A stretch of 35,695 bases of DNA from Nitrososphaeraceae archaeon (GCA_025935105.1 JAICVW010000001.1:1-35695), one strand, 5' to 3'; counted from the first letter of the stretch, positions 16,544-31,185 are shown. Notes: a model not told the origin generated them from the sequence alone. A program made the numbers and translations.

Positions 16544-16581
16544 GCCTTTCCTACTGGTCGTTTCCGAAAGGCAGCGACCAG
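16544..16581 (+). promoter_or_regulatory. Interlocked RNA stems (pseudoknot or switch) after ssb
   Basis: Stem a: GCCTTTC (16544-16550) with GAAAGGC (16566-16572). Stem b: CTGGTCG (16554-16560) with CGACCAG (16575-16581). Order a-b-a'-b'; linkers 3, 5 and 2 nt; all 14 pairs Watson-Crick. It starts on the base after the ssb stop codon and ends 27 nt before the next ATG. The shape is shared with elements at 23114 and 31130. Confidence 0.7.
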
Positions 16582-16608
16582 AAGAAAGTAACAAATGAAG
16601 GAAATAAC

Positions 16609-16923
16609 ATGAACGAAATAATTAATAAAAAAAGAAGACGATTTTTCGCATTAGCAAAAGAATTAGGTTACCAGAGTGAAATGATAAAAAATCGTGGAAA
16701 AGCTCATTTTAAAAAAGAGCATTTCAATGAATTAACAGAAGTGGAATTAGATTGGTTAATTAAAAAGTTAGAAAAGAAGTTATATGATGCTGAATTTGAA
16801 CAAAAAATTGCAGCTAATGAGGCAGATGCAATGAGACAAGAAGAAGAACAAGGGAAATTTGCGGAAATGGAAGCATGGGATGCTGAGCAAGCATTTTATG
16901 CAAGTCAGGGGCCAGATTATTAA
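16609..16923 (+). CDS. Charged helical early protein (104 aa)
   Basis: 104 residues. A basic N-terminus (INKKRRRFFALAKELGY) resembles a short DNA- or RNA-binding helix pair, followed by 'LTEVELDWLIKKLEKK' and an acidic, Ala/Glu-rich helix to the C-terminus (ANEADAMRQEEEQGK). The first part recalls small phage helix-hairpin modules that accompany ssDNA-binding proteins, but no family is firmly recognised. ATG 16609 has GAAGGA eight bases upstream. The same frame stays open back to a TTG at 16540 overlapping the ssb stop, which is less likely as start. The leader holds the interlocked RNA element. Confidence 0.55.
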   Translation: MNEIINKKRRRFFALAKELGYQSEMIKNRGKAHFKKEHFNELTEVELDWLIKKLEKKLYDAEFEQKIAANEADAMRQEEEQGKFAEMEAWDAEQAFYASQGPDY

Positions 16924-16932
16924 TTTTTTTAT

Positions 16933-16954
16933 TCTCCATGTAAGAAATTGGAGA
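16933..16954 (+). other. Small hairpin in 84-bp spacer
   Basis: TCTCCA (16933-16938) pairs with TGGAGA (16949-16954) around a 10-nt loop. A T-run lies before, not after, the hairpin, so it is not a plus-strand intrinsic terminator. Its function is unknown. The spacer also holds a mini hairpin GGC-GTGT-GCC near 16983. Confidence 0.35.
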
Positions 16955-17007
16955 GAAATTAACTAAAGAAATGTAAACATAGGGCGTGTGCCGATAAATT
17001 TGAAGCT

Positions 17008-17373
17008 ATGATAAATCCGAGTAAAAAAATAACACCCCTGGTCAGAGAAATTCTCAGAGACCATTTAGAAGCACGAGAGGATTATAAAATCCTCATAAAA
17101 CTTGTGTGGCAAAAACAAGGACTCTCTTTAAGTGATTTACAAATTGAAGAACTTCTTAATAATTGTTCTACCCCTGAATCAATAACTCGATCTGCAAGAG
17201 CTGTTTGGCAAAAGAAAGAATATCTTCCTACTCAAAGAACTCTCAAAAAAAGAGGAAGAATGGAAGTTAATTATCACAATACATATTCTCCTAAGAAGAA
17301 TTTTGTAGAAGTTTTAGATACAAATGGACGAGTTACAGGATATAGAGAGGAGCTATCTTATGAAATGGTTTAA
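17008..17373 (+). CDS. Hypothetical replication-region protein (121 aa)
   Basis: 121 residues. Residues 9-75 are helical, with LVREILRDHLEAREDYKILI and a later PESITRSARAVWQKKEYLPT that reads like a DNA-binding helical bundle. The C-terminal 40 residues are polar, ending TGYREELSYEMV. It lies directly before, and overlaps, the initiator-like gene, so a role in replication is likely by context alone. No clear Shine-Dalgarno is present for the ATG at 17008, only a GAAG four bases upstream. No named family is recognised. Confidence 0.5.
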   Translation: MINPSKKITPLVREILRDHLEAREDYKILIKLVWQKQGLSLSDLQIEELLNNCSTPESITRSARAVWQKKEYLPTQRTLKKRGRMEVNYHNTYSPKKNFVEVLDTNGRVTGYREELSYEMV

Positions 17374-18208
17374 ATTTTACGGACAGGATTTTTTAACCGA
17401 CTCAAAAATTGGATCTCTTAATCCATTACAAAAACTTATGTGGGTTGTTCTTTTATCTGTTGCCAGTCAGGATGAAGAAAAAACAGGAATAATTAAATTT
17501 CTTACTGAGTCGAGACTTAAAGAATTATGTGGAATTACTGATAATCCATACAACGATGATTGGTTAAGAACTAATGAAACGCTTGTAACATTTTGTAACA
17601 TGGGTCTTGTTACAATGCCAGACAAAGATACCATTATTATCAATAATTACAATGAACACCAGACAGAAAATCAAAGTAGTGCAGAACGAGTAAGAGCATA
17701 TAGAGATCGTCAAAAGGCCAAAATTGAGGCTAAGACTAATGTAACACCTGTAACAAATGTAACATTACAAAAAGTAAAAACTGTAACGCTAGATAAGAAT
17801 AGAATAGATAAGAATAATAAAGAAATAAATAAAGAAAATAAACCTTCTTCAAAAATAACCTACTTAATTGAACTTCCTTTAGAAGACGTAGATGAATTTA
17901 CTAAAAACTTTGTAATAAATAAATCTCGTTTAATAAGTAAAGGAAAGGAAGTTTATGACTCCTTAATTTCACGAGGTAAAACACATACCTATACAGACTA
18001 CAAAGCTCTTATGCGTAACATATTACGAAGAGATTTTGGAGAACGAAAAATTCAATTACAAACTGCGGACAATATTCCTAATGTTGCCCCAATAGTTCCT
18101 CCTACACCTGAAGAGTTAGCCAGAACAGAACGAATAAAATCAGAAATGCGTGAGAAATGGGGAAAAAAACATCCAACGGAAGGAGGTCAAGCAAATGTCA
18201 TTCGATGA
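17360..18208 (+). CDS. Replication initiator-like protein (replisome organiser type)
   Basis: 282 residues. The N-terminus MKWFKFYGQDFLTDSKIGSL, followed by a winged-helix-like part (about 20-110: LTESRLKELCGI, FCNMGLVTMPDKDTIIINNY) and the linker QSSAERVRAYRDRQKAK, is typical of phage replisome-organiser proteins that open the origin and recruit host helicase. The middle is Lys/Asn/Thr-rich and flexible; the C-terminal third (about 180-270) contains a second helical domain with YTDYKALMRNILRRDFGERK. ATG 17360 overlaps the previous gene, with AGAGGAG nine bases before it. An AT-rich, lysine-coding stretch near 17760-17840 might serve as origin, but no iterons are visible. Confidence 0.6.
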   Translation: MKWFKFYGQDFLTDSKIGSLNPLQKLMWVVLLSVASQDEEKTGIIKFLTESRLKELCGITDNPYNDDWLRTNETLVTFCNMGLVTMPDKDTIIINNYNEHQTENQSSAERVRAYRDRQKAKIEAKTNVTPVTNVTLQKVKTVTLDKNRIDKNNKEINKENKPSSKITYLIELPLEDVDEFTKNFVINKSRLISKGKEVYDSLISRGKTHTYTDYKALMRNILRRDFGERKIQLQTADNIPNVAPIVPPTPEELARTERIKSEMREKWGKKHPTEGGQANVIR

Positions 18209-18425
18209 TATCGCATATTGGAAAAAAAGAATGCTAGAGCAATTGAACTCTAATTGGAAAAGTTGGACAAGAGATACATTAGCAAAAGTTAAAGAAAATG
18301 CTTTTCATATTAAATTAGAGGACAAAGAAATAAATGTAGCTCTTAACAAAATAACAGATGGATTTACGGAATTAGAAGTTGCCATTGTTAAAGCAAAAAT
18401 TAGAAAGGATAAAAAAAGTGTTTGA
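18195..18425 (+). CDS. Hypothetical protein (76 aa)
   Basis: 76 residues, starting MSFDDIAYWKKRMLEQLNSN, predicted mostly helical with mixed charge; the second half (KLEDKEINVALNKITDGFTE) looks like a small alpha/beta module. It has a strong AAGGAGG site about 10 nt before the ATG and overlaps the end of the initiator-like gene. No family is recognised. Its position between the initiator and an HNH protein suggests a replication or DNA-processing helper. Confidence 0.5.
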   Translation: MSFDDIAYWKKRMLEQLNSNWKSWTRDTLAKVKENAFHIKLEDKEINVALNKITDGFTELEVAIVKAKIRKDKKSV

Positions 18426-18786
18426 TACACCTAATTTAGCCAAAGAATTCCATCCAGTACCAAAAGTGTTCAAAGGCAAAGAGCCAAAGAAATCTACACT
18501 TGGACCTGGAAAGAAAACAACTCAATGGGAGGGTGAAAGAGCAAAGCTTATTGAAGAGTTTGCCAACATGGACATAACTTCCTGTGAGATTAAATTTGAA
18601 GGATGCTGGAAAAACAATGCTCTTGGATTTGCCCATATAGATAAAAGGAAGAATTTACGACCAGAAGATTTACCAAGTGTGGTACTTGCTTGCACTCCAT
18701 GTCATCAGACAGTTGAGGCATGGAACAATATCAGAATGAGAAAGTTCTTACTAGAAATTATTAAAAAAAGAAATGAAAGCTTATGA
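18418..18786 (+). CDS. HNH-type nuclease domain protein
   Basis: 122 residues from GTG 18418 (AAAGGAT 7 nt upstream), overlapping the previous gene. Residues 54-100 carry a zinc-bound HNH/treble-clef signature: Cys56 and Cys63 in SCEIKFEGCW, the catalytic-type His73 in FAHIDKRKN, and ACTPCHQTVE with Cys92, Cys95 and His96. HNH enzymes nick or cut DNA with one metal ion; in phages they help packaging, recombination or homing. The basic N-terminal 45 residues may bind DNA. A longer upstream start (18379) is possible but would overlap much more. Confidence 0.65.
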   Translation: MFDTPNLAKEFHPVPKVFKGKEPKKSTLGPGKKTTQWEGERAKLIEEFANMDITSCEIKFEGCWKNNALGFAHIDKRKNLRPEDLPSVVLACTPCHQTVEAWNNIRMRKFLLEIIKKRNESL

Positions 18787-18789
18787 AGT

Positions 18790-18972
18790 ATGAAATGTAT
18801 TCATGGGGCTAAAGGGGACTGCAAAACCTGTGAGAGATCTGAAAAAACAAGGATACAAAAATTTTGCAAAGTACATAAGTCTATTTGGGGTAATGGTTCT
18901 TGGTGGTGTCTCTGGATTTTATGGAAAGACAAACTTAGCGAAAGATGTGAAGAGGAATATCTAAAAATATGA
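18790..18972 (+). CDS. Cysteine-rich mini-protein (60 aa)
   Basis: 60 residues with many Cys and His: MKCIHGAKGDCKTCERS, then KFCKVHKSIWGNGSWWCL and a last Cys near residue 53. The CxxC plus CxxH spacing suggests one zinc-binding site or two half sites. Several Trp residues follow. It starts 3 bases after the HNH gene and overlaps the next ORF by ATGA. It is one of several small zinc-type proteins in this genome. No known family. Confidence 0.5.
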   Translation: MKCIHGAKGDCKTCERSEKTRIQKFCKVHKSIWGNGSWWCLWILWKDKLSERCEEEYLKI

Positions 18973-19070
18973 AAAAGTACATTGAATATTTATTGTTGAA
19001 ATGGAGAAGAAGAAATACTTACGTAGTTAATTCAAGGGTAATGATAAAAATTTTGAAAGGAGGTGACTAA
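18969..19070 (+). CDS. Basic mini-protein (33 aa)
   Basis: 33 codons, MKKYIEYLLLKWRRRNTYVV and so on, very basic with a hydrophobic helix; its last codons contain the ribosome binding site (AAAGGAGGTGA) of the next gene. It starts by ATGA overlap with the preceding gene, which supports translation, but at this size it may be mainly a coupling device. No family can be assigned. Confidence 0.35.
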   Translation: MKKYIEYLLLKWRRRNTYVVNSRVMIKILKGGD

Positions 19071-19071
19071 G

Positions 19072-19461
19072 ATGTGGGATCAAAATAATTGGCAAAATCA
19101 CCAATATCAATCACAGTTGCAAAATCAAACAATGCAGCAATTAGCTCAGCCATGGCCTTTTTTAGGGAATGCGCTTTATGATGCAGAACATAAAGGATAT
19201 ATCAAAGTAGACAAAGGTACACCTGATAAAGCAAAATTCGTGATTTTCTATGCTGTAGAAAAGAAAGACCCAATGATTTTCTGCAATTCAAAGTCAGAAG
19301 TCATGAAAGAACTTAGTAAGCTTTCCAAGAGACGAGAAGTCGATATGGCAAGTGTCAGAGTTTTTGGATTTATGGGAGGAGTCAAGGTAAAAAAGACTGT
19401 CACCATTCAATTAAAAAGTGGCAGAAAAGTTAAAGGTATTCTTATTGAGGAAGAAAAATAA
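19072..19461 (+). CDS. Hypothetical early protein (129 aa)
   Basis: 129 residues. The N-terminal 28 residues are Gln/Asn-rich (NQNHQYQSQLQNQTMQQ-like composition), followed by a compact alpha/beta part: YIKVDKGTPDKAKFVIFYAV, a helix with SEVMKELSKLSKR, and beta strands VRVFGFMGG and TVTIQLKSGRKVKG at the end. No catalytic signature is evident. The perfect AAAGGAGGTGA site, just before ATG 19072, predicts strong translation in contrast to the flanking mini-genes. Function unknown. Confidence 0.55.
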   Translation: MWDQNNWQNHQYQSQLQNQTMQQLAQPWPFLGNALYDAEHKGYIKVDKGTPDKAKFVIFYAVEKKDPMIFCNSKSEVMKELSKLSKRREVDMASVRVFGFMGGVKVKKTVTIQLKSGRKVKGILIEEEK

Positions 19462-19494
19462 GAGGAATCTTAAGAAGAAAAGGAGGTGAACAAT

Positions 19495-19917
19495 ATGAAA
19501 GATTTTTTAGCATATACATTTATAACACTATTTGGATTATTTCTCATAGTATTTGTAGCTGTTGGCTTGAGATGGGCATGGCAATTTCCTGCTAGCTTCA
19601 CTTACAGCAACGGAGAAAGAATAGGAACATTAATTAAGTTTTCAGAAAGAGGATTTTTTATAAAGAATTGGTGCGGTGACATTCAAGTTGGAAGTATTAC
19701 TCAGACAGATAAAGGAATTATTACTAACTACAGTCAAAACCAATACGATCTAGAGTTTGGCATTGATAGACGAGTTAATGATCAAAAATTGATTGCAAAA
19801 ATCAATTCCTTAGCAGGTAAACCTGTACGTATTAGATACGAGCAAAAATCATTTGGTGGGAGTGCTTTTATCGGCTGCTCCGATTATTTAGTAACAGATA
19901 TTCAAGAAATAAGATAG
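19495..19917 (+). CDS. Membrane-anchored protein with beta domain
   Basis: 140 residues. One N-terminal transmembrane segment (about 8-29, FITLFGLFLIVFVAVGLRWA), then an extracytoplasmic-type beta domain with NGERIGTLIKFSERGFFIKN (39-58), two Cys (about 60 and 129) that could pair, and KPVRIRYEQ near the end. The GERxGxxxKFSxxG pattern occurs in small inner-membrane proteins of plasmids and phages whose role is unclear. A perfect ribosome binding site (AAAGGAGGTGA) stands just before the ATG. Function unknown. Confidence 0.55.
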   Translation: MKDFLAYTFITLFGLFLIVFVAVGLRWAWQFPASFTYSNGERIGTLIKFSERGFFIKNWCGDIQVGSITQTDKGIITNYSQNQYDLEFGIDRRVNDQKLIAKINSLAGKPVRIRYEQKSFGGSAFIGCSDYLVTDIQEIR

Positions 19918-19925
19918 CTTTTTGC

Positions 19926-19944
19926 CTCTAGCCTATGGCTGGAG
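19926..19944 (+). promoter_or_regulatory. Hairpin covering the Shine-Dalgarno of gene 19955
   Basis: CTCTAGCC (19926-19933) pairs with GGCTGGAG (19937-19944) around a TAT loop; seven Watson-Crick pairs plus one G-T. The 3' arm contains GGAG, the only Shine-Dalgarno for the ATG at 19955, so the hairpin would limit initiation. Confidence 0.5.
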
Positions 19945-19954
19945 AGAGAAAACT

Positions 19955-20062
19955 ATGAAACTAATTAGAAAAATACTTAACGCAATGAAAGAAGCAATGG
20001 AGTATTGGGATGAGCATCCAGAAGAATTGGCTCAATTTATGAATCAATGGAGGATATTTTAG
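19955..20062 (+). CDS. Mini-protein (35 aa)
   Basis: 35 residues, MKLIRKILNAMKEAMEYWDE followed by an acidic/aromatic end (HPEELAQFMNQWRIF). An amphipathic helix is likely. GGAG lies 11 bases before the ATG, within a hairpin. It is too short for the usual ORF threshold, but the ribosome binding site and the filled space between neighbours support it. No function can be proposed. Confidence 0.4.
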   Translation: MKLIRKILNAMKEAMEYWDEHPEELAQFMNQWRIF

Positions 20063-20095
20063 GTCGCCAACCTAACCTTGTGCGACGTTGAAGAT

Positions 20096-20578
20096 ATGAA
20101 TGATAAAAAAATACTAGATGTATGTTGCGGTGGCCGAATGTTTTGGTTCAATAAAAAGCATCCAAATGCTTTGTATGTTGATAAAAGAGTAGTGGATCCA
20201 ATGACTGTGGGGAAAGGAAGAAATGCTAGAACTTTTAGTTGCCAACCTGATAAAGTAATGGATTTTAGAAAACTAGACTTACCAGACAATAGTTTTAGTC
20301 TAGTGGTTTTTGACCCGCCACATTACACAAAAGCAGGAGAAAAAAGTTATATGGCACAAAAGTATGGAGTATTGGATCCAACTTGGGAAGATGATTTGCG
20401 AAAAGGTTTTGCAGAATGTTTTAGAGTCTTAAAGCCTGATGGAGTGCTTATCTTTAAGTGGTCCGAGTTTTTTATTCCACTTAGAAAAATCTTACAGCTC
20501 ACACCCCATCAGCCTTTATTTGGACATCCAAGCGGAAAAGCACAAAAAACTCATTGGGTAACATTTATGAAGGGCTAG
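20096..20578 (+). CDS. SAM-dependent methyltransferase, DNA-methylase-like
   Basis: 160 residues with a minimal Rossmann methyltransferase core: motif I ILDVCCGGRMFWFN (about 6-19), an acidic turn LYVDKR, LDLPDNSFSLVVFDPPHYTK (62-81) with the DPPH catalytic motif close to the DPPY of N6-adenine or N4-cytosine DNA methylases, and FRVLKPDGVLIFKW. No separate target-recognition domain is seen, as usual in small phage enzymes. It may protect phage DNA from restriction. An in-frame TTG at 20078 exists, but the ATG at 20096 is preferred. The leader holds weak overlapping stems (20059-20085). Confidence 0.65.
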   Translation: MNDKKILDVCCGGRMFWFNKKHPNALYVDKRVVDPMTVGKGRNARTFSCQPDKVMDFRKLDLPDNSFSLVVFDPPHYTKAGEKSYMAQKYGVLDPTWEDDLRKGFAECFRVLKPDGVLIFKWSEFFIPLRKILQLTPHQPLFGHPSGKAQKTHWVTFMKG

Positions 20579-20597
20579 CCTTTAGCAAGGGGAAAGT

Positions 20598-21077
20598 ATG
20601 AAGAAGATAAAACAAAGAATAGTAAGTAATATAATGGGAGATTGTTTTGCAGCCTGCATGGCTTCATTGCTTGAGCTTCCAATTGAAGTACTTCCAAATG
20701 ACCATAGTGAGGCGTGGTTTTCTGTGTGGGAAGTTTTTCTAAAACAGTTTGGATTAGAAATAACAAGCGATAGTGCAAAAGGTGCAATATGGGCAATCCA
20801 TCCATGGATAGCATCAGTAAAAAGCCAAAACTTTGAAAACGATACTCATGCAATTATTATGCACAATGGCGGAATAGTTTTATTTGACCCATCAACGAAG
20901 AAGACCTACAAGAAAGGTATGAGCATGTTAAGTAAAGATATTGTTATTGGTGGATATAGGATTGAGGTGTCTGATTTTAGTAAGTTGCATAAATTAAAGC
21001 AATATAGGGATAAACTGTCCCAAGAAAGAGGACAGTTGACGTCGCACAAGCTGCAGAAGGCGACAAGTAATATATGA
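20598..21077 (+). CDS. Papain-like (C39-like) cysteine peptidase-fold protein
   Basis: 159 residues. The pattern GDCFAACMASLLELPIEVLP (14-33) with candidate nucleophile Cys16, then His84 in NDTHAIIMHNGGIVLFDPS and Asp97, reproduces the Cys-His-Asp/Asn order of C39-like papain-fold proteins often found in phage accessory regions. The substrate is unknown; protease, transglutaminase-like and deamidase roles are all open. A polar helical tail (125-159) follows. AAGGGG lies about 9 nt before the ATG; the end overlaps the next gene by ATGA. Confidence 0.55.
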   Translation: MKKIKQRIVSNIMGDCFAACMASLLELPIEVLPNDHSEAWFSVWEVFLKQFGLEITSDSAKGAIWAIHPWIASVKSQNFENDTHAIIMHNGGIVLFDPSTKKTYKKGMSMLSKDIVIGGYRIEVSDFSKLHKLKQYRDKLSQERGQLTSHKLQKATSNI

Positions 21078-21187
21078 AAAACAAAATATATTGGCAACTA
21101 ACATTCTTTCGGGACAAATGGTTTATACCATCGTTTATTGTCAGCATTGTTGATTGGTTAAGGTATGAGTATTTTTGGGAAGGTTAA
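21074..21187 (+). CDS. Aromatic mini-protein (37 aa)
   Basis: 37 residues rich in Trp, Phe and Tyr (MKNKIYWQLTFFRDKWFIPS, then FIVSIVDWLRYEYFWEG). Probably membrane-associated, either as a short hydrophobic helix or an amphipathic strand. It overlaps the previous gene by ATGA and is followed 5 bases later by the next ATG. Composition does not allow a functional call. Confidence 0.4.
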   Translation: MKNKIYWQLTFFRDKWFIPSFIVSIVDWLRYEYFWEG

Positions 21188-21192
21188 GAATT

Positions 21193-21570
21193 ATGAAACA
21201 AACAGTAATTGCAGACGATGAAAAGCTTTATCAAATTAAAGCAAAAGAAATGAATAAAGATAAAGTAATTAAAATACTTACTGTTTGCGATCAAGGAAAT
21301 AATAGAGCTGTTCAATTTGCTCACTTGCTGAAATATAAATATAAAGCTGATGCTATTCCAGTTGGATTAGATACAACATCTAAAGAAACACTAGATATGT
21401 TATATACATGGGCGGATTACATTATTTTAACGGATAAAACACAAAAAGTACCAGGTGAGTATACAAGCAAAGTAAAGCTGTGGGATGTAGGAGAAGATAG
21501 ATACCCAAGACCGTTTAATCCAGTGTTACTTGTTATAGCGAAGAAAATGATTGAAGATAACCCATTATGA
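21193..21570 (+). CDS. Low-molecular-weight phosphatase-like protein
   Basis: 125 residues from ATG 21193. Near the start of the fold stands ILTVCDQGNNRAVQFAHLL with Cys32-x5-Arg38, the phosphate-binding loop of low-molecular-weight tyrosine phosphatases and arsenate-reductase-like proteins. Later come WADYIILTD and LWDVGEDRYPRP, the latter carrying Asp residues suitable as the general acid. This may be a phage phosphatase acting on nucleotides, phosphoproteins or sugar phosphates; the substrate is not evident. TTG at 21175 is an alternative, less likely start. Confidence 0.5.
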   Translation: MKQTVIADDEKLYQIKAKEMNKDKVIKILTVCDQGNNRAVQFAHLLKYKYKADAIPVGLDTTSKETLDMLYTWADYIILTDKTQKVPGEYTSKVKLWDVGEDRYPRPFNPVLLVIAKKMIEDNPL

Positions 21571-21689
21571 AAGAGAAATATAAGGAAATAAAATGTGTGG
21601 GTTGTGATAAGAAACTAATGGTTGATATTGCAACAGCAGCAGCTTGTTGTAGTGACTGCAATTGGTTTTCCAAACTCAAAAGAGAGTAA
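21567..21689 (+). CDS. Zinc-ribbon mini-protein (40 aa)
   Basis: 40 residues with Cys10-x2-Cys13 (KCVGCDKK) and Cys27/28-x-x-Cys31 (ACCSDCNW), a complete four-cysteine zinc ribbon separated by 13-14 residues. The start overlaps the previous stop (ATGA). It lies directly before the small terminase, so a DNA-binding or packaging-accessory role is conceivable; nothing else points to function. Confidence 0.5.
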   Translation: MKEKYKEIKCVGCDKKLMVDIATAAACCSDCNWFSKLKRE

Positions 21690-21693
21690 AAAT

Positions 21694-22119
21694 ATGAGTA
21701 CACAAAAGCAGAAAGCCTTAGCCAAGAAAATCGTAGGAAATCCCAGCTTACCGATGGCTGAGGCAATGCGTGAGGTAGGATATTCAGAAGCTTCAGCGAG
21801 TAAACCTAGTGAGGTAACTAATTCTAAGGGCTGGCAAGAGCTTATGGATAAATATTTACCCGATGATAAAGTGCTCGGAGCACATCAAGATGCTTTAGAA
21901 GCAACTAAAACAAGTAATGCAGCAATACTTCTCACAAAGGATGGTCAAACAGTTAAAGCAGAAGAACAAGGCTTAATTGAAGTACCCGATCATCAGACAA
22001 GGCTAAAAGCAGTTGAATTAGCTTATAAGGTAAAGAAGAAGATAGGAAATGAAAGTGTTGGTGCAGAGTTCAAAGACGGAGATAAACAAGATAGATTTAA
22101 TATTACACGAGTAGAATGA
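21694..22119 (+). CDS. terS: Small terminase subunit
   Basis: 141 residues from ATG 21694. The N-terminus MSTQKQKALAKKIVGNPSLP and AEAMREVGYSEASASKPSEV (18-37) form the helix-turn-helix-type DNA-binding region of small terminases ('number of cycles, EAxxxxGYS'). A helical oligomerisation region with TRLKAVELAYKVKKKIG and an acidic C-terminal end contacting the large subunit follow. TerS recognises phage DNA for packaging. Unusually, the large subunit gene is 1 kb away, behind four small genes. The upstream in-frame TTG/ATG region (from 21622) overlaps the zinc-ribbon ORF and is rejected. Confidence 0.7.
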   Translation: MSTQKQKALAKKIVGNPSLPMAEAMREVGYSEASASKPSEVTNSKGWQELMDKYLPDDKVLGAHQDALEATKTSNAAILLTKDGQTVKAEEQGLIEVPDHQTRLKAVELAYKVKKKIGNESVGAEFKDGDKQDRFNITRVE

Positions 22120-22304
22120 TTGAAAAACGTGGCATTAAATATTACACAATTGGTTTTGTTAGAGGCCCATTGAGCGGATGGCACAGAGGAGACATGGTAA
22201 AGTGTGGTCCATATTTCTTTAAGATTACACACGTAGATAGAAAGAAGTCACAACTTATTTCTAAACAGTCAAAAAAGGTATACATAATTATGGATTGTAA
22301 ATGA
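22116..22304 (+). CDS. Hypothetical protein (62 aa)
   Basis: 62 residues, starting MIEKRGIKYYTIGFVRGPLS, beta-rich with GWHRGDMVKCGPYFFKITHV and a basic end. It could be an SH3-like or OB-like small barrel. It overlaps both neighbours by ATGA. No family is recognised. It is one of four small ORFs between the terminase subunits. Confidence 0.45.
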   Translation: MIEKRGIKYYTIGFVRGPLSGWHRGDMVKCGPYFFKITHVDRKKSQLISKQSKKVYIIMDCK

Positions 22305-22471
22305 AAAAAAAGATTTGGCAACTACATTGTAAGGATGGAAAAGGGCATCAGTTTGAATTTACGGGAGCATTCTTTGGGCAAAGGAATTGTGTAAAATGTT
22401 CGATTTATGAATATATGTATAAGATGTTCTTAAAGAAGCAAAACAAGGATTTGAAAGGAGGTGAATTATGA
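22301..22471 (+). CDS. Cys/His mini-protein (56 aa)
   Basis: 56 residues: MKKKIWQLHCKDGKGHQFEF, then FGQRNCVKCSIYEYMY and a basic end LKKQNKDLKGGEL. Cys10, His16, Cys30 and Cys33 could bind one zinc (C-x5-H-x13-C-x2-C). It overlaps the previous gene by ATGA. Its last codons contain the AAAGGAGGTGA ribosome binding site of the next gene, tying their translation together. Function unknown. Confidence 0.45.
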   Translation: MKKKIWQLHCKDGKGHQFEFTGAFFGQRNCVKCSIYEYMYKMFLKKQNKDLKGGEL

Positions 22472-22933: not shown

Positions 22934-23114
22934 TGTAGTTGTTAAAGATAAATATGGATATTCAATTTCAGCAACAGGAGATGTTTTTAATATTCCAATA
23001 AGACAGACATCAACAAGCACAGCGCCATTTAAGTTTAGAAGGAAATTGAATATAGTACAATTAGTGCTAAACGTGAGTAAATATAGAGAAGGTAAGATAG
23101 TAAAAATGATTTAA
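22926..23114 (+). CDS. Basic small protein B of a paralogous pair (62 aa)
   Basis: 62 residues from ATG 22926, overlapping protein A by 8 bases. The beta-like N-terminus NNVVVKDKYGYSISATGDVF is followed by polar linker and the shared C-terminal motif KLNIVQLVLNVSKYREGKIV. Its stop codon overlaps the first base of the interlocked RNA element before the large terminase. Function unknown. Confidence 0.45.
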   Translation: MNNVVVKDKYGYSISATGDVFNIPIRQTSTSTAPFKFRRKLNIVQLVLNVSKYREGKIVKMI

Positions 23115-23155
23115 CTAGTGGCATAGCGAAGGAGGGGTATCACTAGTGCTCCTCC
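23114..23155 (+). promoter_or_regulatory. Interlocked RNA stems directly before large terminase
   Basis: Stem a: ACTAGTG (23114-23120) with CACTAGT (23141-23147). Stem b: GGAGGGG (23131-23137) with CTCCTCC (23149-23155), six Watson-Crick pairs and one G-T. Linkers are 10, 3 and 1 nt. Stem b hides the only Shine-Dalgarno-like sequence (GGAGG), and the element ends 3 bases before the terminase ATG at 23159. Confidence 0.65.
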
Positions 23156-23158
23156 GTT

Positions 23159-24487
23159 ATGCAAGACATACGGGTAAATACCTTTTACCCTACAAGACCA
23201 CATGCAAAACAACAGGAAGTATTAAACGCTCTTGATAAAGGGGAGCGTTTTGTCCTGTTGAGAGCAGGAAGAAAGTTTCGCAAAACTTCTCTAATGATCT
23301 CATGGTTATTCGAGAAAGCTTTAGAGACAGGACTTGTATGTCCATATATTGCACCAAATAAAGTACAAGCTAAAAATATCGTATGGGATGATCACATTGG
23401 TAGACTCCTCAATCATCTACAAGCCTTAGGTGTTAAATACAAACCAAATGAGGTAGAGCTGTCTATTACACTTCCAAACAATGGGAAAGTACAGCTCTAT
23501 GGGGTTGAGAATAAAGAAGCGCTTCGAGGCATTTCCAATTGGGCAGCAATTGCATGTGATGAGTATGACGATTGGCAAGAAGATATCTGGCCGACAATCA
23601 TTCGTCCTAATCTTATTACCCATAAAGCTCAAGCAATTATTGGAGGAACACCAAAAGGGTATCGAAACCTTTTCAGATTAGAGAATAATTCTACATTCAA
23701 ATCATTCCACTACACTTCTTATGATAATCCAGACCTTGACGAAAGAGAACTAGAGCAAATGGTCAAAGAATACCAAGAGCAAGGCATGGGATATTATAGA
23801 CAAGAAATACTCGCAGAATACGAGAAGCCACAAGGGACAGTTTATGAAGAATGGGACATGGAACGTAGATACATTCCATTTACCTATGATCCTAACTTAC
23901 CACTTCATTTAACATGGGACTTTGGAGTTAATGATCCAACAGCAATTATCTTTATTCAACCAAATGGGTCAGAGCTACGAGTAATTGATTACTATGAAGC
24001 ATCAGATGCAAACATTGAGCATTTCGTTCAATACATCTCCTCGTTGCCTTATAAGGTGCCAGCTCTAGAGACAGGAGATATTGCAGGACGAGCGAGAGAC
24101 TTGGTAAGCGGTAAGTCTCCAATTGAGGAGCTAAGACGTTTAGGGCACTTTGTACGTACTTCAGCAATACCATCTATCGCAGACCAAATAAGAAATACCC
24201 ACAAGTTTATTCCGAGTCTATATATATCAAGCAGCAATCCTAATTGTGAACGAATGAGAGATTGTTTGGTTAACTATCGTTATCCTAAAAAAGAACAGAA
24301 TCTTATTAATCAATCTAACGAAGTACCTATCCATGATGAATACTCTCATGCTATGCGTGCTTTGGAATACTACTGCTGGAACACAACATTTGCTACAAAA
24401 ATTCTAGAGCAATCACCAAGTGAAAGGTCAGTCTTTGGTTATTTAAAGAAAAAAGAAGAGAAGAGGTGGATTGATGATGGATATTAG
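23159..24487 (+). CDS. terL: Large terminase subunit (ATPase-nuclease)
   Basis: 442 residues, full length. ATPase part: a P-loop-like RAGRKFRKTSL (35-45), where the usual Gly before Lys42 is Arg41; Walker B IACDEYDDW with D134-E135; coupling motif GGTPKG (162-167). Nuclease part: Asp254 in LTWDFGVNDP, Asp307 in ETGDIAGRA and Asp393 in IHDEYSHAMRALEYY, the RNase H-type metal-binding triad. It packages DNA into the procapsid through the portal. There is no free Shine-Dalgarno; the leader is occupied by an interlocked stem structure. This is the first gene of late block B. Confidence 0.85.
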   Translation: MQDIRVNTFYPTRPHAKQQEVLNALDKGERFVLLRAGRKFRKTSLMISWLFEKALETGLVCPYIAPNKVQAKNIVWDDHIGRLLNHLQALGVKYKPNEVELSITLPNNGKVQLYGVENKEALRGISNWAAIACDEYDDWQEDIWPTIIRPNLITHKAQAIIGGTPKGYRNLFRLENNSTFKSFHYTSYDNPDLDERELEQMVKEYQEQGMGYYRQEILAEYEKPQGTVYEEWDMERRYIPFTYDPNLPLHLTWDFGVNDPTAIIFIQPNGSELRVIDYYEASDANIEHFVQYISSLPYKVPALETGDIAGRARDLVSGKSPIEELRRLGHFVRTSAIPSIADQIRNTHKFIPSLYISSSNPNCERMRDCLVNYRYPKKEQNLINQSNEVPIHDEYSHAMRALEYYCWNTTFATKILEQSPSERSVFGYLKKKEEKRWIDDGY

Positions 24488-25601: not shown

Positions 25602-25614
25602 TTCTCATAACTAG
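25602..25614 (+). promoter_or_regulatory. Late motif copy TTCTCATAACTAG
   Basis: Begins on the base after the sigma-like gene's stop codon and 39 nt before the portal ATG (25641), which has no Shine-Dalgarno. This is the first copy in map order. Confidence 0.6.
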
Positions 25615-25640
25615 CACCTTTACTCACGATACTAACGAAT

Positions 25641-27758
25641 ATGGCTGCTACCCAGACAAACAATAATCCGCTAAGTACAACGGATACATACTCACCTATT
25701 GCAGATCAATCATCTCGACTTGCTATCCTTAAATCGAGACTGAGACTTGCCAAGACATGGGCTAAAAAGCCACATGATGCATGGAAAGCATGGATGAATG
25801 AATATAACATTCAAGATTGGGATGATACTTCAGATATCCGAGACAAAGTAAGAATTGGATATCTCTTCAGAAAAGCTGAGTCAGATATGCCAGCTCTCTT
25901 TGATGATCAGCCAGACATCTTTATTAAAGGACGCAATGCCAATGCTTCACTTATTCAGCCACTCGCCTTAGGACTTTATGATTACCTTTGGGATAAGCAG
26001 GATTTAGAAACAAAAATAGAAGATGCAGCACTTTACTTTATTGTCCTTGGTATGGGATTTGTTTCATCTCCTTGGGTAACAAAGACAAAGAAAGTGCCTC
26101 AACAATCACAGCAACCAGTACTTGATCCTACAACTGGACAACCTGTTATAGATCCTACTACAGGACAGCCTCAAATGGAAACAAAAACAGAAATGTTGGA
26201 AGTACCAATTATTGATAATCCACAAGCAGAAGTCGAAGACCCATTCAAGATATTCTTCTCACCAGAGACCAAGTTTGCTATGACACTTCCTTATGAAAAG
26301 TGTCCTTATTACTTTAAGGAAATGACACTCTCAGTCGATGAGATTAAAGCTCGATTTGGTATTACTGTAGATCCACAAGAAACACTTCAAATTGATGATT
26401 TACCATACGATGAGCAGAAGCTAAAAAATATTCAAGATCCAGACATTATCAAAGATGACATGAAGCGGAGTACAGTATATGAGTATTATGGTGTTCTTCC
26501 TGAGTGGGCATGTAAAGATATGAAGCCTTCTGACGGAACTGAGGATGATGAGACTCAAGAAGATCCAAAAGAGGAAGCAACTGAAACACCAGCACAGGAA
26601 GCATCTGAAGAGCAAGCAGAGGGTGAAACTGATGCAACAGGGGGTTGGTCTTACGACAAAGATTACCACATCTTCTTTACTATGAATCGAGAGCTATTGG
26701 TAGAGGAATCACCATATGATGTTAAACCTCTCAAAGTGCTTGGTAATTACGGTTTTGCTAATAGATTTTGGAGATTTGGTGATAGTAAACATTTGATGCC
26801 ACTTATTCAAGAGCTGGAGTTTTACAGAACACAGATTCTCAGACATACACGAAAGATGGCCAATCCTAAGCCACTTATCCCAACCAGTGCAAATATAGAT
26901 GAAAACGCTTTCCTTGATCCACGATCTGGTAGACCTGTGAAATTCGATGGTCCAACTCCCCCAACCTACTTACAGCCTGGCGTATTAGGTCGTGAGGTAG
27001 GAGAAGGAATTAATGAAGTCAGACAAGACTTAGAGAAGCAATCAGGATCATTCGATCTTGCATCTGGTACTCCAAACTCAACTGTGAAGACGCCTAAAGG
27101 TATTGAGGTTTATTCAAATGCCTCAGACAAAAATACAGAGCGAAAGAGGAAAAAGATTGCTAAGTTTATTCGTGAGCTTCTTATTTTCCAATTCCAACAA
27201 GTTGGGCAAAACTGGAAGCCAGAGGATGGGAAAATTCTGTCAATCACAGGACAAGACCAAAACCAACAAAACATTAGCGTAGACCAAGAAGTTCTTAGTG
27301 CAATTAATGGAATCAATGAAATGTGGTCTTTGGATATAGAGACAGAATCTTTATCAGTCAACAAAGCCATGATGAAGCAGGATGCTCTTGATTTGTTTGC
27401 TTTAGGAGCACAGCATCCAGATGTATTTAATAAAGATGAATTGGCAAAAGATTTACTTCAGAATGGATATGGAAAGAAAGATGCAGACAGATACTTACTC
27501 AATGCACAACAGAAAGCACAACTTGCTCAAGCATCTGGTCCACAACCTCAAGTTAATGTCAGAGTTATGGCAGATGCAGGTAGTCCAGCAGGAGCAAAGC
27601 TTCTTGAGAACGAAGGCTTACTTAATCCACAAGATGCGGTAAATGCAGTTGCGCCAGCTAATCCAACAGTTGCAGGCTCAGATCATCCAGTCAATCAAAC
27701 ACCAGACGCAAATATTCAAGGTTACATAGGTCGTGTAACAGGATCGGGAGGTGAGTAG
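25641..27758 (+). CDS. Portal protein, P22-like length
   Basis: 705 residues, close to P22 gp1 (725). The N-terminal region starts with helical segments (SRLAILKSRLRLAKTWAKKP). It has a KRSTVYEYYGVLPEW strand-turn (about 274-288), wing/stem helices (QELEFYRTQILRHTRKMANP, 394-413) and a long C-terminal amide-rich barrel-like region. An acidic linker (about 293-335) and a duplicated DPTTGQP element (about 161-177) are phage-specific. The portal ring is the DNA entry/exit and binds the terminase and adaptor. The stop overlaps the ribosome binding site region of the next gene. Late motif leader, no Shine-Dalgarno. Confidence 0.75.
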   Translation: MAATQTNNNPLSTTDTYSPIADQSSRLAILKSRLRLAKTWAKKPHDAWKAWMNEYNIQDWDDTSDIRDKVRIGYLFRKAESDMPALFDDQPDIFIKGRNANASLIQPLALGLYDYLWDKQDLETKIEDAALYFIVLGMGFVSSPWVTKTKKVPQQSQQPVLDPTTGQPVIDPTTGQPQMETKTEMLEVPIIDNPQAEVEDPFKIFFSPETKFAMTLPYEKCPYYFKEMTLSVDEIKARFGITVDPQETLQIDDLPYDEQKLKNIQDPDIIKDDMKRSTVYEYYGVLPEWACKDMKPSDGTEDDETQEDPKEEATETPAQEASEEQAEGETDATGGWSYDKDYHIFFTMNRELLVEESPYDVKPLKVLGNYGFANRFWRFGDSKHLMPLIQELEFYRTQILRHTRKMANPKPLIPTSANIDENAFLDPRSGRPVKFDGPTPPTYLQPGVLGREVGEGINEVRQDLEKQSGSFDLASGTPNSTVKTPKGIEVYSNASDKNTERKRKKIAKFIRELLIFQFQQVGQNWKPEDGKILSITGQDQNQQNISVDQEVLSAINGINEMWSLDIETESLSVNKAMMKQDALDLFALGAQHPDVFNKDELAKDLLQNGYGKKDADRYLLNAQQKAQLAQASGPQPQVNVRVMADAGSPAGAKLLENEGLLNPQDAVNAVAPANPTVAGSDHPVNQTPDANIQGYIGRVTGSGGE
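26124..26171 (+). repeat. Short tandem coding repeat in portal gene
   Basis: GATCCTACAACTGGACAACC (26124-) recurs 27 bases later with a few changes (26151-), coding for DPTTGQP twice in a disordered linker. Slippage-type duplication is likely. Confidence 0.6.
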
Positions 27759-27761
27759 TTT

Positions 27762-27902
27762 ATGCCAAGAGGAGTAAAACCAAAAGCAGATTCCATAAAA
27801 TCAGGAGAAAAAGCACGAGGTGGTCTTGCTGATCCACAAAGCGATGACTTATCAGCACCAGATAAAGGAAAAGATTTTGTAAAAGCAGGAGAAAACGCTT
27901 AA
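27762..27902 (+). CDS. Small virion-region protein (46 aa)
   Basis: 46 residues, polar: MPRGVKPKADSIKSGEKARG, then a Gly/Asp/Ser-rich part and the end KGKDFVKAGENA. GGGAGGTGAG spans the portal stop. The DF-V-x-AG end resembles the DFIPAG element of the small proteins at 35024 and 35194. Probably a minor structural or assembly peptide. Too short for a family call. Confidence 0.45.
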   Translation: MPRGVKPKADSIKSGEKARGGLADPQSDDLSAPDKGKDFVKAGENA

Positions 27903-27925
27903 TGGTGAAAGGGGGTGAATAAGAT

Positions 27926-28165
27926 ATGGCAAATGTAACAAAAGGAGCACAAGGACCTACGGCTACAGCAGCAACAGTACGAGGCTATATGAAAAATAGT
28001 CCCGTGGTTAATCATGCTGTTATGTATCCAAGTGTAGGTACTACAACAAAGAACCTTCCAGTAGGAGGAAATCCTGGATTAAAAACAGGGTTGGGTCAAA
28101 GCAAAGCTACTTATGGTGGAATGAAAAGTGGTAGCGGAGCAGCAAAAAGGATGGGAGGCGAGTAA
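27926..28165 (+). CDS. Gly-rich structural-region protein (79 aa)
   Basis: 79 residues, basic and Gly/Thr/Ala-rich, apparently unstructured (MANVTKGAQGPTATAATVRG, then GLKTGLGQSKATYGGMKSGS). AAAGGGGGTGA stands about 8 nt before the ATG. The next gene's ATG shares its last base (TAATG). It may be a minor head protein; no family is recognised. Confidence 0.5.
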   Translation: MANVTKGAQGPTATAATVRGYMKNSPVVNHAVMYPSVGTTTKNLPVGGNPGLKTGLGQSKATYGGMKSGSGAAKRMGGE

Positions 28166-28572
28166 TGCAAATTCCCAGTCCTAATAAAGGCAAAAAGTTT
28201 ACCTCAATTGTCGGCAATGAGGGTCTATACTATGAAAATAGTCATCAAGAACAAATAACTGTTCTTGAGCCAATAGACCCTCAGGAACCTCGTTTAGGAT
28301 CACGTCCAGTTGTAAAAATAATTGAAGTACCAGAAAATCCTGAAGTGGTTAATCTTCAAACAGGTGAATCAAACTCTCAATACTGGAAACCAGAACTCAT
28401 TTTAGATCCTGAAGGATGTGAGCATGAATTTGTTCCAGTAGATTTAGGAAAACGTGAAGTACAATGCAAACATTGCAATATGGGGCTTATTTTCCACGTT
28501 GGTCTTAATTATAAAGAAGTTGATGGACAACCCTATATTACCCTCAATAAATACGATTATCCTCTTGTTTAA
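28165..28572 (+). CDS. Zinc-ribbon head-region protein (135 aa)
   Basis: 135 residues. The N-terminal 85 residues are polar with a beta element VVKIIEVPENPEVVNL. A C-terminal zinc-ribbon-like part has Cys-x-His (GCEHEFVPVDLGKREVQCKH, about 91-110) and CKHCNMGLIF. Four ligands (one Cys/His set and CxxC) are present. Similar zinc-ribbon proteins occur next to portal or scaffold genes in several phages, but their role is unclear. GGGAGGCGAG precedes the ATG. Confidence 0.55.
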   Translation: MQIPSPNKGKKFTSIVGNEGLYYENSHQEQITVLEPIDPQEPRLGSRPVVKIIEVPENPEVVNLQTGESNSQYWKPELILDPEGCEHEFVPVDLGKREVQCKHCNMGLIFHVGLNYKEVDGQPYITLNKYDYPLV

Positions 28573-28579
28573 CCCCGTT

Positions 28580-28592
28580 TTCTCATAACTAG
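28580..28592 (+). promoter_or_regulatory. Late motif copy TTCTCATAACTAG before scaffold leader
   Basis: Lies 8 bases after the zinc-ribbon gene's stop. Unlike most copies it has no ATG 38 nt downstream; instead a folded leader of about 70 nt leads to an SD-driven TTG start at 28666. Confidence 0.55.
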
Positions 28593-28594
28593 CT

Positions 28595-28636
28595 CTTATA
28601 GCCTCTATAAGTTAATCAACCTTACTAGAACAAGGT
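28595..28636 (+). promoter_or_regulatory. Two hairpins in scaffold leader
   Basis: CTTATA-GCCTC-TATAAG (28595-28611) and ACCTT/AAGGT (28619-28623 with 28632-28636, 8-nt loop) follow the late motif and precede the ribosome binding site. They could set scaffold expression level. Confidence 0.5.
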
Positions 28637-28665
28637 AAATACCACTCGAAAGGAGGTGAATTAAA

Positions 28666-29514
28666 TTGACAGACGAATTAGTCAGCTCAGAGTCCTCTGA
28701 AGGAGCAACTGAAGCTGAAGTAGATAACAGTCAAGGGGAAGGTCAAGCGACTGAACAGGTAGCGCAACCTTCAACAGGAAAAGAAGAACAGGCTGAAGAG
28801 TCATTCTTTGATCCCAACCAAGTACCTGAAGAGCTTAAACCTGCATACAAGCAGATGCAAGCAGCTTTTACGAAGAAAACTCAAGAAATCGCTAACACGA
28901 AGAAAGAGGCAGAAGCGTTAAGGCAGAAAGCAGATGCATATGGAAGGTATGAGCAATATGTACCGATTCTGGAGGAGATGCTAAAAACTCCAGTAAGTCA
29001 GACACAACAGGCAAGTCCAGAAATGGCAGCGTTGGAAGCAGAACTGACAAAAGCGGGATATAGCAAGGAAGCAATTGATTTGATGAAAATGGGTGCAGCG
29101 TTTACGCTTCGCCAAGTAAATCAAACCCAAGCTCAAAAAGATTTTCAAGTTCGACTTGAAGGTGGAATAAGAGACGCAGAAAAGCTAGATCCACGATTGG
29201 CAGACGAAAATCTGAAGTACACGCTCGATGATGGACAATCAATGAGTTTTGGTGATGTCGTATCGAAAATAGTTTTATCGACACCCAACTGGCAAAAAGA
29301 TCCAGTTGCAGCAACCAAATCAGCCATTAAAACTGTTGATGCGCTTATTGGAAAAGCAAAAACCGAAGGGAAACAGGAACTATCTGCATCAGCAAAAGCA
29401 AAGGGTCAGAAGTTTCCTCCCATTAACCGCTCTCCTCAAACAGCAGTCTCGGATACACAACCATCGAGCATGCGTGAAGCAGCTCAATTAGCACGAGACG
29501 AACTAGGAATCTAG
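28666..29514 (+). CDS. Scaffold protein
   Basis: 282 residues from TTG 28666 with AAAGGAGGTGA 7 nt upstream. An acidic, Ser/Gly/Gln-rich start, a long coiled coil (about 60-160: YKQMQAAFTKKTQEIANTKK and on) and a basic C-terminal end (INRSPQTAVSD, then REAAQLARDELGI) match phage internal scaffolds, which guide capsid assembly and leave or are degraded afterwards. It directly precedes the major capsid gene, the usual order. Function is inferred from composition and order; no protease gene is visible. Confidence 0.65.
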   Translation: MTDELVSSESSEGATEAEVDNSQGEGQATEQVAQPSTGKEEQAEESFFDPNQVPEELKPAYKQMQAAFTKKTQEIANTKKEAEALRQKADAYGRYEQYVPILEEMLKTPVSQTQQASPEMAALEAELTKAGYSKEAIDLMKMGAAFTLRQVNQTQAQKDFQVRLEGGIRDAEKLDPRLADENLKYTLDDGQSMSFGDVVSKIVLSTPNWQKDPVAATKSAIKTVDALIGKAKTEGKQELSASAKAKGQKFPPINRSPQTAVSDTQPSSMREAAQLARDELGI

Positions 29515-29537
29515 ACGTTGAGAGGAGGTGAAAAATA

Positions 29538-30491
29538 ATGGCAGATGTAAATGTAGGGTTACTCTTATCGACAACCCTCAAAAAATACAGAAAAACACTT
29601 GTTGACCAAATCCACAAATCTAATGCTGTGTTCTATTTCCTTAAACAAGAAGGGAACATAAAAGAGGAAGATGGCGGAGAAAGAATTGTTGTTCCTGTTA
29701 TGTACGGCAAAAACAGCACCGCTGGCTCGTACTCTGGTTATGATTCTCTCGATGTTACCCCACAGCAAGGTATAGATAGTGCTGAATTTAACTGGAAACA
29801 GTATTCAGTTTCTATTGCTATCTCTGGAGAAGAAGAAAGAAAAAACGCAGGCAGTTCAAAAATCATTGACATCCTCGAAGCTCGCACAAAGCAAGCTCGA
29901 ATGTCCATGACTGAACAGCTCTCAACTGGACTTTTCTCTGATGGTACTGGAAACGGCGGAAAAGACCTTACTGGTCTTGAAGCTATGGTTACTAACTCTG
30001 GCACGTACGGAGGTATTAACTCAGCAACCTATACATGGTGGCAAGCAGGTGTAGATACGGCTTCTGAAGCTCTCGGTTTAAGTAAGATGAGAGTTGGATT
30101 CAATACCGCCTCTTTAGGAGGTAAAGATACTCCAAATCTTATTGTTACAACGCAAACACTCTATCAGTCATACGAAGGTCTTTTAACAGCCACATCCCCA
30201 GCAGTTCCATACTTCCCTTCTGAGGGAACGAAGAAATTGGGCGATGGCGGATTCCAAGTTTTGGAATTCAAAGGAACTCCAATTGTCTGGGATGAGTTAG
30301 CTCCTTCTGGAGACATGTACTTCTTAAATACAAATCATATGAACTTAACTGTTCATAAGGATGCGAATTTTGAAGTTACTGACTTTGTGAAACCAGAGAA
30401 CCAAGATGCACGTGTTGCACAAATTCTCTTCATGGGTAATCTTACCTGTGATCGTAGAAAGAGTTTCTACAAGTTGACGAGTAAGACATAA
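29538..30491 (+). CDS. Major capsid protein, HK97 fold
   Basis: 317 residues. The N-arm (VNVGLLLSTTLKKYRKTLVD) is followed by the E-loop-like stretch GGERIVVPVMYGKNSTAGSY (45-64), the spine helix with ILEARTKQARMSMTEQLSTG, the P-domain region ending in IVTTQTLYQSYEGLL (202-216) and the A-domain/C-terminus FQVLEFKGTPIVWDELAPSG with HMNLTVHKDANFEVTDFVKP. This is the pattern of the common HK97-type phage capsid proteins. GAGGAGGTGA stands 8 nt before the ATG. A folded spacer follows the gene. Confidence 0.8.
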   Translation: MADVNVGLLLSTTLKKYRKTLVDQIHKSNAVFYFLKQEGNIKEEDGGERIVVPVMYGKNSTAGSYSGYDSLDVTPQQGIDSAEFNWKQYSVSIAISGEEERKNAGSSKIIDILEARTKQARMSMTEQLSTGLFSDGTGNGGKDLTGLEAMVTNSGTYGGINSATYTWWQAGVDTASEALGLSKMRVGFNTASLGGKDTPNLIVTTQTLYQSYEGLLTATSPAVPYFPSEGTKKLGDGGFQVLEFKGTPIVWDELAPSGDMYFLNTNHMNLTVHKDANFEVTDFVKPENQDARVAQILFMGNLTCDRRKSFYKLTSKT

Positions 30492-30509
30492 AGTTAAACC
30501 TTTATGCAT

Positions 30510-30617
30510 GCGGTGGTTCCAGCTTGAGTGGCAATCGTAAGAAATACCACGAACCGCAAATCTTCTCAATGCGTAGGAGTTGGAGAAATACCAGCCTATA
30601 CGTAAATTTATGAGAAG
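30510..30617 (+). ncRNA. Folded spacer between capsid and decoration genes
   Basis: Between the capsid stop (30491) and ATG 30636 the RNA can fold into two domains. Domain 1: GGTTC (30515-30519) with GAACC (30551-30555), enclosing GTGG (30528-30531) with CCAC (30547-30550). Domain 2: CTTCTCA (30562-30568) with TGAGAAG (30611-30617), enclosing CGTAGG (30572-30577) with CCTAtaCG (30595-30602). The last arm abuts the ribosome binding site of the next gene. It may act as an mRNA stabiliser, processing site or translational control element; class unknown. Confidence 0.55.
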
Positions 30618-30635
30618 GAAGGAGGATGAAAAGAA

Positions 30636-31067
30636 ATGATTATAACAAGAGTACAAAGAGGAGATAAAAACCAAGAAAAGGTCTTTATTTCTGTAAGTAA
30701 TACATCAGGAACAACCATTACCACAGGGTATGGTGTTTCTTACCAATTAGGTGCTTCTAATGATGGCATGCAAGCTCAACTTGCAAGCGTAGCAGCTAAT
30801 GGATTTGTCGGTGTTGCTGTAAAAGATATTGCTATTAACGATATTGGATTAGTACAGATTGCAGGGTTTGTAAACTCTGTCTTACTGTCTAATGTAGGAA
30901 CTTCAATCACTGTTAACGCAGGAGATCCTTTAGTTCCAGCACCAGCAGGATTCGCTTCCTCTGCACCAACTTATGCAAACTCTGGATTTAGAATGGTGTT
31001 CGCATCAAACGTTCCAGTTGCTGTCTCAGCAGTTGCATACGCATCAGGGTTAATTAAGATGATCTAG
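30636..31067 (+). CDS. Capsid decoration-like protein
   Basis: 143 residues, beta-rich, with Ala/Gly/Val/Ser bias: GYGVSYQLGASNDGMQAQLA, then ANGFVGVAVKDIAINDIGLV and FRMVFASNVPVAVSAVAYAS. The size and the 'GvavkdiaindiGlvqi' pattern resemble DUF2190-type head decoration or stabilising proteins encoded right after the capsid. AAGGAAGGAGG precedes the ATG by about 8 bases. Probably on the capsid surface. Family by resemblance only. Confidence 0.6.
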   Translation: MIITRVQRGDKNQEKVFISVSNTSGTTITTGYGVSYQLGASNDGMQAQLASVAANGFVGVAVKDIAINDIGLVQIAGFVNSVLLSNVGTSITVNAGDPLVPAPAGFASSAPTYANSGFRMVFASNVPVAVSAVAYASGLIKMI

Positions 31068-31086
31068 TTATGCGAATTGTCACAGA

Positions 31087-31096
31087 TTCTCATAAC
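31087..31096 (+). promoter_or_regulatory. Late motif copy TTCTCATAAC before sugar-transferase block
   Basis: Lies 19 bases after the decoration gene stop. The bases after TTCTCATAAC diverge (AAGG instead of TAG) and there is no ATG at 38 nt; a folded leader follows. Confidence 0.5.
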
Positions 31097-31120
31097 AAGG
31101 ATTGTTAAAGGTTATCCTTG
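31096..31120 (+). promoter_or_regulatory. Hairpin at the head of the 31-kb leader
   Basis: CAAGGAT (31096-31102) pairs perfectly with ATCCTTG (31114-31120) around an 11-nt loop. It immediately follows the late motif and precedes the interlocked stems. Confidence 0.55.
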
Positions 31121-31129
31121 AGACAACTA

Positions 31130-31179
31130 AATCGGCTGTAGATATATCCGCTCCTTTTTCAGCCGATTGAGGGGCGGAT
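31130..31179 (+). promoter_or_regulatory. Interlocked RNA stems before sugar-transferase block
   Basis: Stem a: AATCGGCTG (31130-31138) with CAGCCGATT (31160-31168), nine Watson-Crick pairs. Stem b: ATCCGCTCC (31146-31154) with GGGGCGGAT (31171-31179), eight plus one G-T. Linkers are 7, 5 (TTTTT) and 2 nt. It ends 6 bases before ATG 31186. The order a-b-a'-b' equals the 16544 element. Confidence 0.7.
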
Positions 31180-31185
31180 TTCTTT

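Follow-up and report, generated by a model that had tools for sequence, protein, structure and literature searches.

Organization of the locus

The window analysed here, i.e., the whole stretch of 35,695 bases, is an entire contig (G000:C249) in a metagenome bin. Its genes include an integrase, a phage major capsid protein, glycosyltransferase-like genes, and a terminase large subunit (terL), the product of which shows about 30% identity to that of Pelagibacter phages. The family-level relatives of the bin are Nitrososphaeraceae archaea, and a complete genome from the same family (G006) resembles Nitrosocosmicus-like ammonia-oxidising archaea. The Shine-Dalgarno-like leaders and a gene of lysozyme-like type, both recognised by eye, nevertheless suggest a bacterial phage. 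Misbinning of a phage contig into an archaeal bin is possible. A close TerL relative was found neither in the genomes of the bin's genus and family nor in a scan of genome contigs, and a search of annotated phage DNA with the part of the window from 16300 to 31400 yielded zero matches.

Three elements, designated E1, E2, and E3, are situated at gene boundaries on the + strand, each consisting of four arms in the order a-b-a'-b', such that a can pair with a' (stem S1) and b with b' (stem S2). E1 follows a gene at 15917..16543 with a weak match to phage single-strand DNA-binding proteins (phrog_8542, phrog_1192) and precedes a gene of 104 amino acids with no assigned function (16609..16923), whose Shine-Dalgarno sequence AAGGAA falls outside the element. 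E2 precedes terL (23159..24487). E3 is located between a gene for a small protein (30636..31067), which adjoins the major capsid gene and whose orthologues served as anchor for the comparison of gaps among phages, and a directly following 49-codon gene without Pfam match (31186..31335). All of these genes are encoded on the + strand. A close relative of the window could not be found, which puts E1-E3 beyond the reach of a base-by-base covariation analysis.

Geometry of the interlocked elements

In E1, arm a (GCCUUUC, 16544..16550) starts one base past the TGA at 16541-16543 and is directly abutted by arm b (CUACUGGUCGUU, 16551..16562), followed by a' (GAAAGGC, 16566..16572) and b' (AGCGACCAGAAG, 16573..16584), with the AUG at 16609 situated 24 nt downstream. 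In E2, the first base of arm a (ACUAGUG, 23114..23120) is the final base of the stop codon TAA; arm b (GCAUAGCGAAGGAG, 23121..23134) includes a Shine-Dalgarno-like AAGGAG, and behind a' (CACUAGU, 23141..23147) arm b' (CUCCUCCGUUAUGC, 23149..23162) includes the terL AUG at 23159. E3 comprises a (AAUCGGCUG, 31130..31138), b (UAGAUAUAUCCGCUCCUU, 31139..31156), a' (CAGCCGAUU, 31160..31168), and b' (GAGGGGCGGAUUUCUUUA, 31169..31186). The latter contains a Shine-Dalgarno-like GAGGGG, is U-rich at its 3' end, and extends to the A of the following AUG, where the second stem stops.

A first-pass annotation of this DNA had described the elements as two alternating stems of 7-9 bp with short second and third linkers. 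Their position and arm order are confirmed, as is the count of 46 pairs (44 Watson-Crick, two G-U), and the placement at gene boundaries also holds, with E1 beginning after a TGA, E2 on the last base of a TAA, and E3 62 nt past a stop. The sizes given for stems and linkers, by contrast, have to be revised: if few mismatches are allowed, the second stems of all three elements lengthen until the first linker disappears, so that the second stem comprises 12-18 pairs and the first linker 0 nt. For E2, the second stem originally proposed (GGAGGGG) is in the wrong register, the better pairing spanning 14 positions, one of them a mismatch and another a G-U. Taken together, E1-E3 possess stems of 7-18 bp, a first linker of 0 nt, and a third linker of 0-1 nt. 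The second stem covers the ribosome-binding site in E2 and E3; that of E1 does not reach it. A first linker that is always 0 nt was considered as a defining feature and rejected: it is true of the strict set, but the linker ranges from 0 to 19 nt in orthologous leaders. The feature common to the elements is their topology.

Comparison with chance expectation

On the + strand of the window, E1-E3 are the top three interlocked pairs by score, and in a strict scan for the pattern [a][b]L2[a'](0-2 nt)[b'] at a threshold of 34 they are the sole matches. The earlier claim that such a set is unlikely to form by chance is borne out, as an equally good triplet occurred in 0 of 600 dinucleotide shuffles, and a nearest-neighbour score of -37 kcal/mol was reached in none of them; simple scoring with 400 shuffles agrees with this result. 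E2 (-26.8 kcal/mol), the weakest of the three, has an expectation of 0.05 per window and is, taken alone, only suggestive. Apart from this value, which chance could accommodate most easily, the shuffles without a triplet as good and the recurrence of such elements at gene boundaries in relatives make it extremely improbable that chance accounts for the three elements as a set.

Concerning related phage contigs (1.56 Mb), 13 elements with a score of at least 44 were found vs 1.5 expected, 6 with at least 50, all of them intergenic, vs 0.25 in shuffles, and 5 with at least 55 vs 0 expected, where G-U was counted as mismatch and a few matches represent the same place re-read on the opposite strand. 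The intergenic share amounts to about 6% of bases in a larger contig set that overlaps the 1.56 Mb. Among 519 same-strand gaps, taken from the window and from related phages, 19 contain interlocked pairs at or below -32 kcal/mol vs 0.9 expected, and nested pairs exhibit a similar enrichment in the same gaps (21 vs 0.6 expected); these figures are subject to partly post hoc thresholds, a crude gene caller, and some overlap among contigs, identical elements in overlapping contigs being counted once. The controls thus fail to reproduce the interlocked stems; equally strong stems in shuffled sequences would have refuted the first-pass annotation.

No convincing intergenic instance was detected in the Pelagibacter phages HTVC010P and HTVC035P, in a TM7 phage, or in Manatee Spring phages. 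An archaeal genome from the bin's family, of which 400 kb were scanned, yielded a single weak intergenic match. Because these other phages and the archaeal sequence gave almost nothing, the motif is not universal.

Orthologous sites in related phages

In the gap after the orthologue of the gene at 30636-31067, phage contig L017 possesses an interlocked element of near-identical geometry to E3 and of unrelated sequence. At the same orthologous site, canonical intrinsic terminators are found in L014, L016, and L051/L152, and a long hairpin in L015. The leaders of replisome-organiser-like genes exhibit the a-b-a'-b' order in divergent phages, namely in L273 and its homologues L275 and L274 as well as in L157 and its homologues L263 and L256, in both cases with unrelated sequences and with linkers of 0-19, 3-16, and 0-25 nt; the arms of L275, L274, L263, and L256 were chosen by eye, with folding rather than separate shuffles as the check. 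The distance from the end of b' to the start codon is 12-14 nt in each of four orthologous replication-gene leaders. In L272, the arrangement is weak at best. The replisome-organiser homologue of the window carries no element before the gene, E1 being situated two genes upstream. L012 does not possess E1 at the corresponding site, and none of the terL leaders inspected (L002, L003, L005) contains E2.

As far as a test for compensatory changes was feasible, topology is kept and pairs are changed, namely at the E3 site of L017 and in the replisome-organiser leaders. Searches against Rfam revealed nothing above the gathering threshold or at E<=5 in the window, and nothing except one tRNA in the related loci searched. 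An undescribed recurrent element, as the first-pass annotation had proposed, is accordingly a fair claim, given the non-random geometry, the recurrence in related phages, and the lack of an Rfam match; a homologous family with conserved sequence is not what was found, as only the architecture is shared.

Some further observations were made in these contigs. Sigma70-like -10 boxes (TATAAT, TATACT), recognised by eye, are located shortly before arm a in L148 (near 970), L157 (near 4955), and L176 (near 485), and some elements may, given these boxes, sit at the 5' end of a transcript. A geneless gap of roughly 300 nt (L040:1967-2267), which has a strong interlocked element at its start, resembles a structured noncoding RNA and lacks an Rfam match up to E=1. 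A conserved long hairpin is present in L159:7792-7876 and 21 homologous gaps (among L157, L160, L161, L164-L187, L197), in the gap after a 138-aa gene resembling a virion protein gene in a clade of TerL relatives. It consists of a 5' x:y hairpin and nested y:y' and b:b' stems with a loop near CCCACCGAU, has a mean folding z-score of -6.5 (22 sequences), and is without Rfam match in the loci searched; its stems were misaligned in the MAFFT/RNAalifold alignment. In relatives identified by the major capsid protein (L095:7589-7632, L101:9104-9145, L115:10967-11005, L119:2618-2659), GC-rich terminator-like hairpins are found whose U-rich tail is complementary to an A-rich loop, e.g., TATGGCGGGGGG AACAGAAA tt CCCTCCGCCATA TTTCTATT.

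Folding order and stability

Partition-function folding of growing transcripts, an equilibrium calculation without kinetics or pseudoknots, gave a probability of 0.77-1.00 for S1 at the completion of a' in 10 of 13 elements, among them E1 (0.93), E2 (1.00), and E3 (0.99). In the full RNA of these elements, S2 attains 0.99-1.00 and S1 at most 0.01. S2 overtakes S1 after 5 (E1), 8 (E2), and 9 (E3) nt of b' and then reaches 1.00. Early S1 is not dominant in L040, L145, and L273. The four orthologous replication-gene leaders fold much alike, with S1 early and S2 afterwards in 4/4.

S2 is the stabler stem in 12 of 13 elements compared, by a slight margin in L136, with L148 as the exception. Weaker-first outnumbers stronger-first arrangements by 9 to 1 at or below -36 kcal/mol and by 12 to 2 at or below -30 kcal/mol, and in a broader gap test by 29 to 13, where about 15 of 46 gaps are expected by chance. 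A weak-then-strong order is required by a switch that depends on folding order, but not by a static knot or a DNA site, and therefore favours the switch.

Imperfect pairs and the level of selection

Inverted repeats are visible in the DNA and the pattern is almost strand-symmetric, so the elements might work as DNA, e.g., as protein sites or cruciforms, with incidental RNA pairing. A function at this level would give G-T and A-C imperfect pairs in equal numbers. In the intergenic elements, however, 30 G-U vs 4 A-C pairs occur on the gene-sense strand (binomial p about 3e-6; tallied over two element sets, with ambiguous ones excluded), whereas chance matches inside genes from the same scan, used as control, contain 69 G-U vs 75 A-C. 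The G-U excess therefore identifies the sense RNA as the selected object, and a DNA-level function appears very improbable.

Discussion

The topology, the enrichment, the selection on sense-strand RNA, and the stability order of S1 and then S2 were established by computation. Our main reading, to which we assign a probability of roughly 0.4, is that the elements represent co-transcriptional two-state RNA switches in intercistronic leaders, acting as attenuators or expression timers. Arm a would pair with a' as soon as the nascent RNA exposes both, and the emergence of b' would allow the stronger b:b' hairpin to form. As the short linkers leave no room for the two complete helices, S1 has to be displaced by S2. 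In the first state, b' would be open together with the stretch leading up to the next gene; in the second, b' would be closed and a free. The delay is presumed to be functional, and the presumed output would be the expression of the downstream gene. Whatever holds arm a would free S2 early, a candidate being the ribosome that finishes on a stop codon beside a (E1, E2, L161, L040, L136).

Concerning the output, a number of second stems resemble weak intrinsic terminators, with a U-rich end in E3 and L017 that is absent from E1 and E2. We think transcription attenuation most likely where S2 is terminator-like, i.e., A-rich/GC/U-rich (E3, L017, L145, L256, L274); for E2 and E3, whose start region is covered by S2, a translation timer is possible. 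A U-run is missing in many elements, E1 included, and S2 of E1 stops short of the next ribosome-binding site, such that no single output fits all elements. As general functions, both Shine-Dalgarno masking, which fails in E1, L145, and L157, and termination, given the many elements without a U-run, were rejected.

Of the two shapes admitted by the first-pass annotation, two mutually exclusive hairpins fit better than an H-type pseudoknot of full stems. The arm order is that of an H-type pseudoknot, but with linkers of 0 and 0-1 nt beside stems of 7-18 bp the length needed for groove crossing is lacking, and both full stems cannot coexist; partial stems alone could. A true pseudoknot from parts of both stems, bound by a phage protein or the ribosome as a translational operator like the T4 gene 32 leader, receives some weight from rough estimates in which the partial pseudoknot is about as stable as S2 in E3 and L158, and from linkers that are long enough in some orthologous leaders (12/4/13 in L275), but E1-E3 share no sequence that a protein could read, and we regard it as improbable. 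Better placed, though still rather unlikely, are static 3'-end or processing elements, i.e., strong intergenic hairpins that terminate transcription, block exonucleases, or serve as RNase III cleavage sites, with a:a' secondary, serving as a second barrier after removal of b'. The plain intrinsic terminators and the long hairpin that relatives carry at the site orthologous to E3 would be in line with such elements, as would the conserved long hairpin after the virion-like gene; however, they leave unexplained both the weak-first order and why interlocked pairs are enriched equally to nested ones, and several elements are situated at the 5' side of a gene and not just past the upstream stop (L157, L176). 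The two-state switch shares with metastable RNAs that, in the equilibrium calculation, an early structure is favoured first and a stabler one later replaces it.

There are similarities to known systems, as well as differences. The leader of T4 gene 32 is an H-type pseudoknot operator with a-b-a'-b' arms near a phage gene start; the arm order of such operators is alike, but the present linkers do not have the length that both full stems would require. ToxI type III antitoxin pseudoknots are likewise short RNAs with interlocked arms that precede a gene, but form tandem repeats before a toxin gene; the elements described here were seen as single copies only, and a toxin gene was not recognised next to them. 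Attenuators and intrinsic terminators resemble the elements in their position before genes, in the A-rich/GC/U-rich second stem of part of the set, and in the terminators that occupy the orthologous site of E3. Classical attenuators, however, have overlapping arms, whereas in the present elements the segment 5' of the second hairpin is the pairing partner of that hairpin's loop, and E1, E2, and others differ from terminators in having no U-runs.

In the maturation-gene leader of the RNA phage MS2, a kinetic-trap hairpin delays folding and thereby times expression (PMC6582335, PMC6733600). A transient early hairpin that delays a stabler, leader-closing structure is likewise predicted here, but the final fold of MS2 is cloverleaf-like and belongs to an RNA phage, whereas the present elements are small interlocked hairpins that recur with private sequences in intercistronic gaps of DNA phages. 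The type I toxin mRNAs aapA3 and hok form metastable hairpins in order during transcription (PMC6733600), i.e., also short sequential hairpins that give way to stabler pairing; in aapA3, successive arms compete for one Shine-Dalgarno sequence before 5'-3' long-range pairing, whereas the arms described here have no bases in common and are exclusive only through threading. Our literature search, mostly of openly accessible papers, found these related mechanisms and no description of an interlocked, sequence-free architecture.

The elements might constitute an undescribed, sequence-free class of RNA switches, in which phages repeatedly evolve interlocked hairpins of private sequence that exclude each other by topology and time or gate the next gene; we put this forward tentatively and at clearly less than even odds. 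In an extreme version, the loop arm a' of one transcript would pair with the free a of another, resulting in transcript-specific self-association.

The discovery of RNA motifs relies on conserved sequence plus structure. Elements that keep their arm order while the sequence turns over fully go unseen in searches with covariance models and might be common, and a simple scan for interlocked stems with the weak one first and an excess of G-U could reveal further ones. If the switch model is true, the phages would possess a minimal design that times gene expression through folding order alone.
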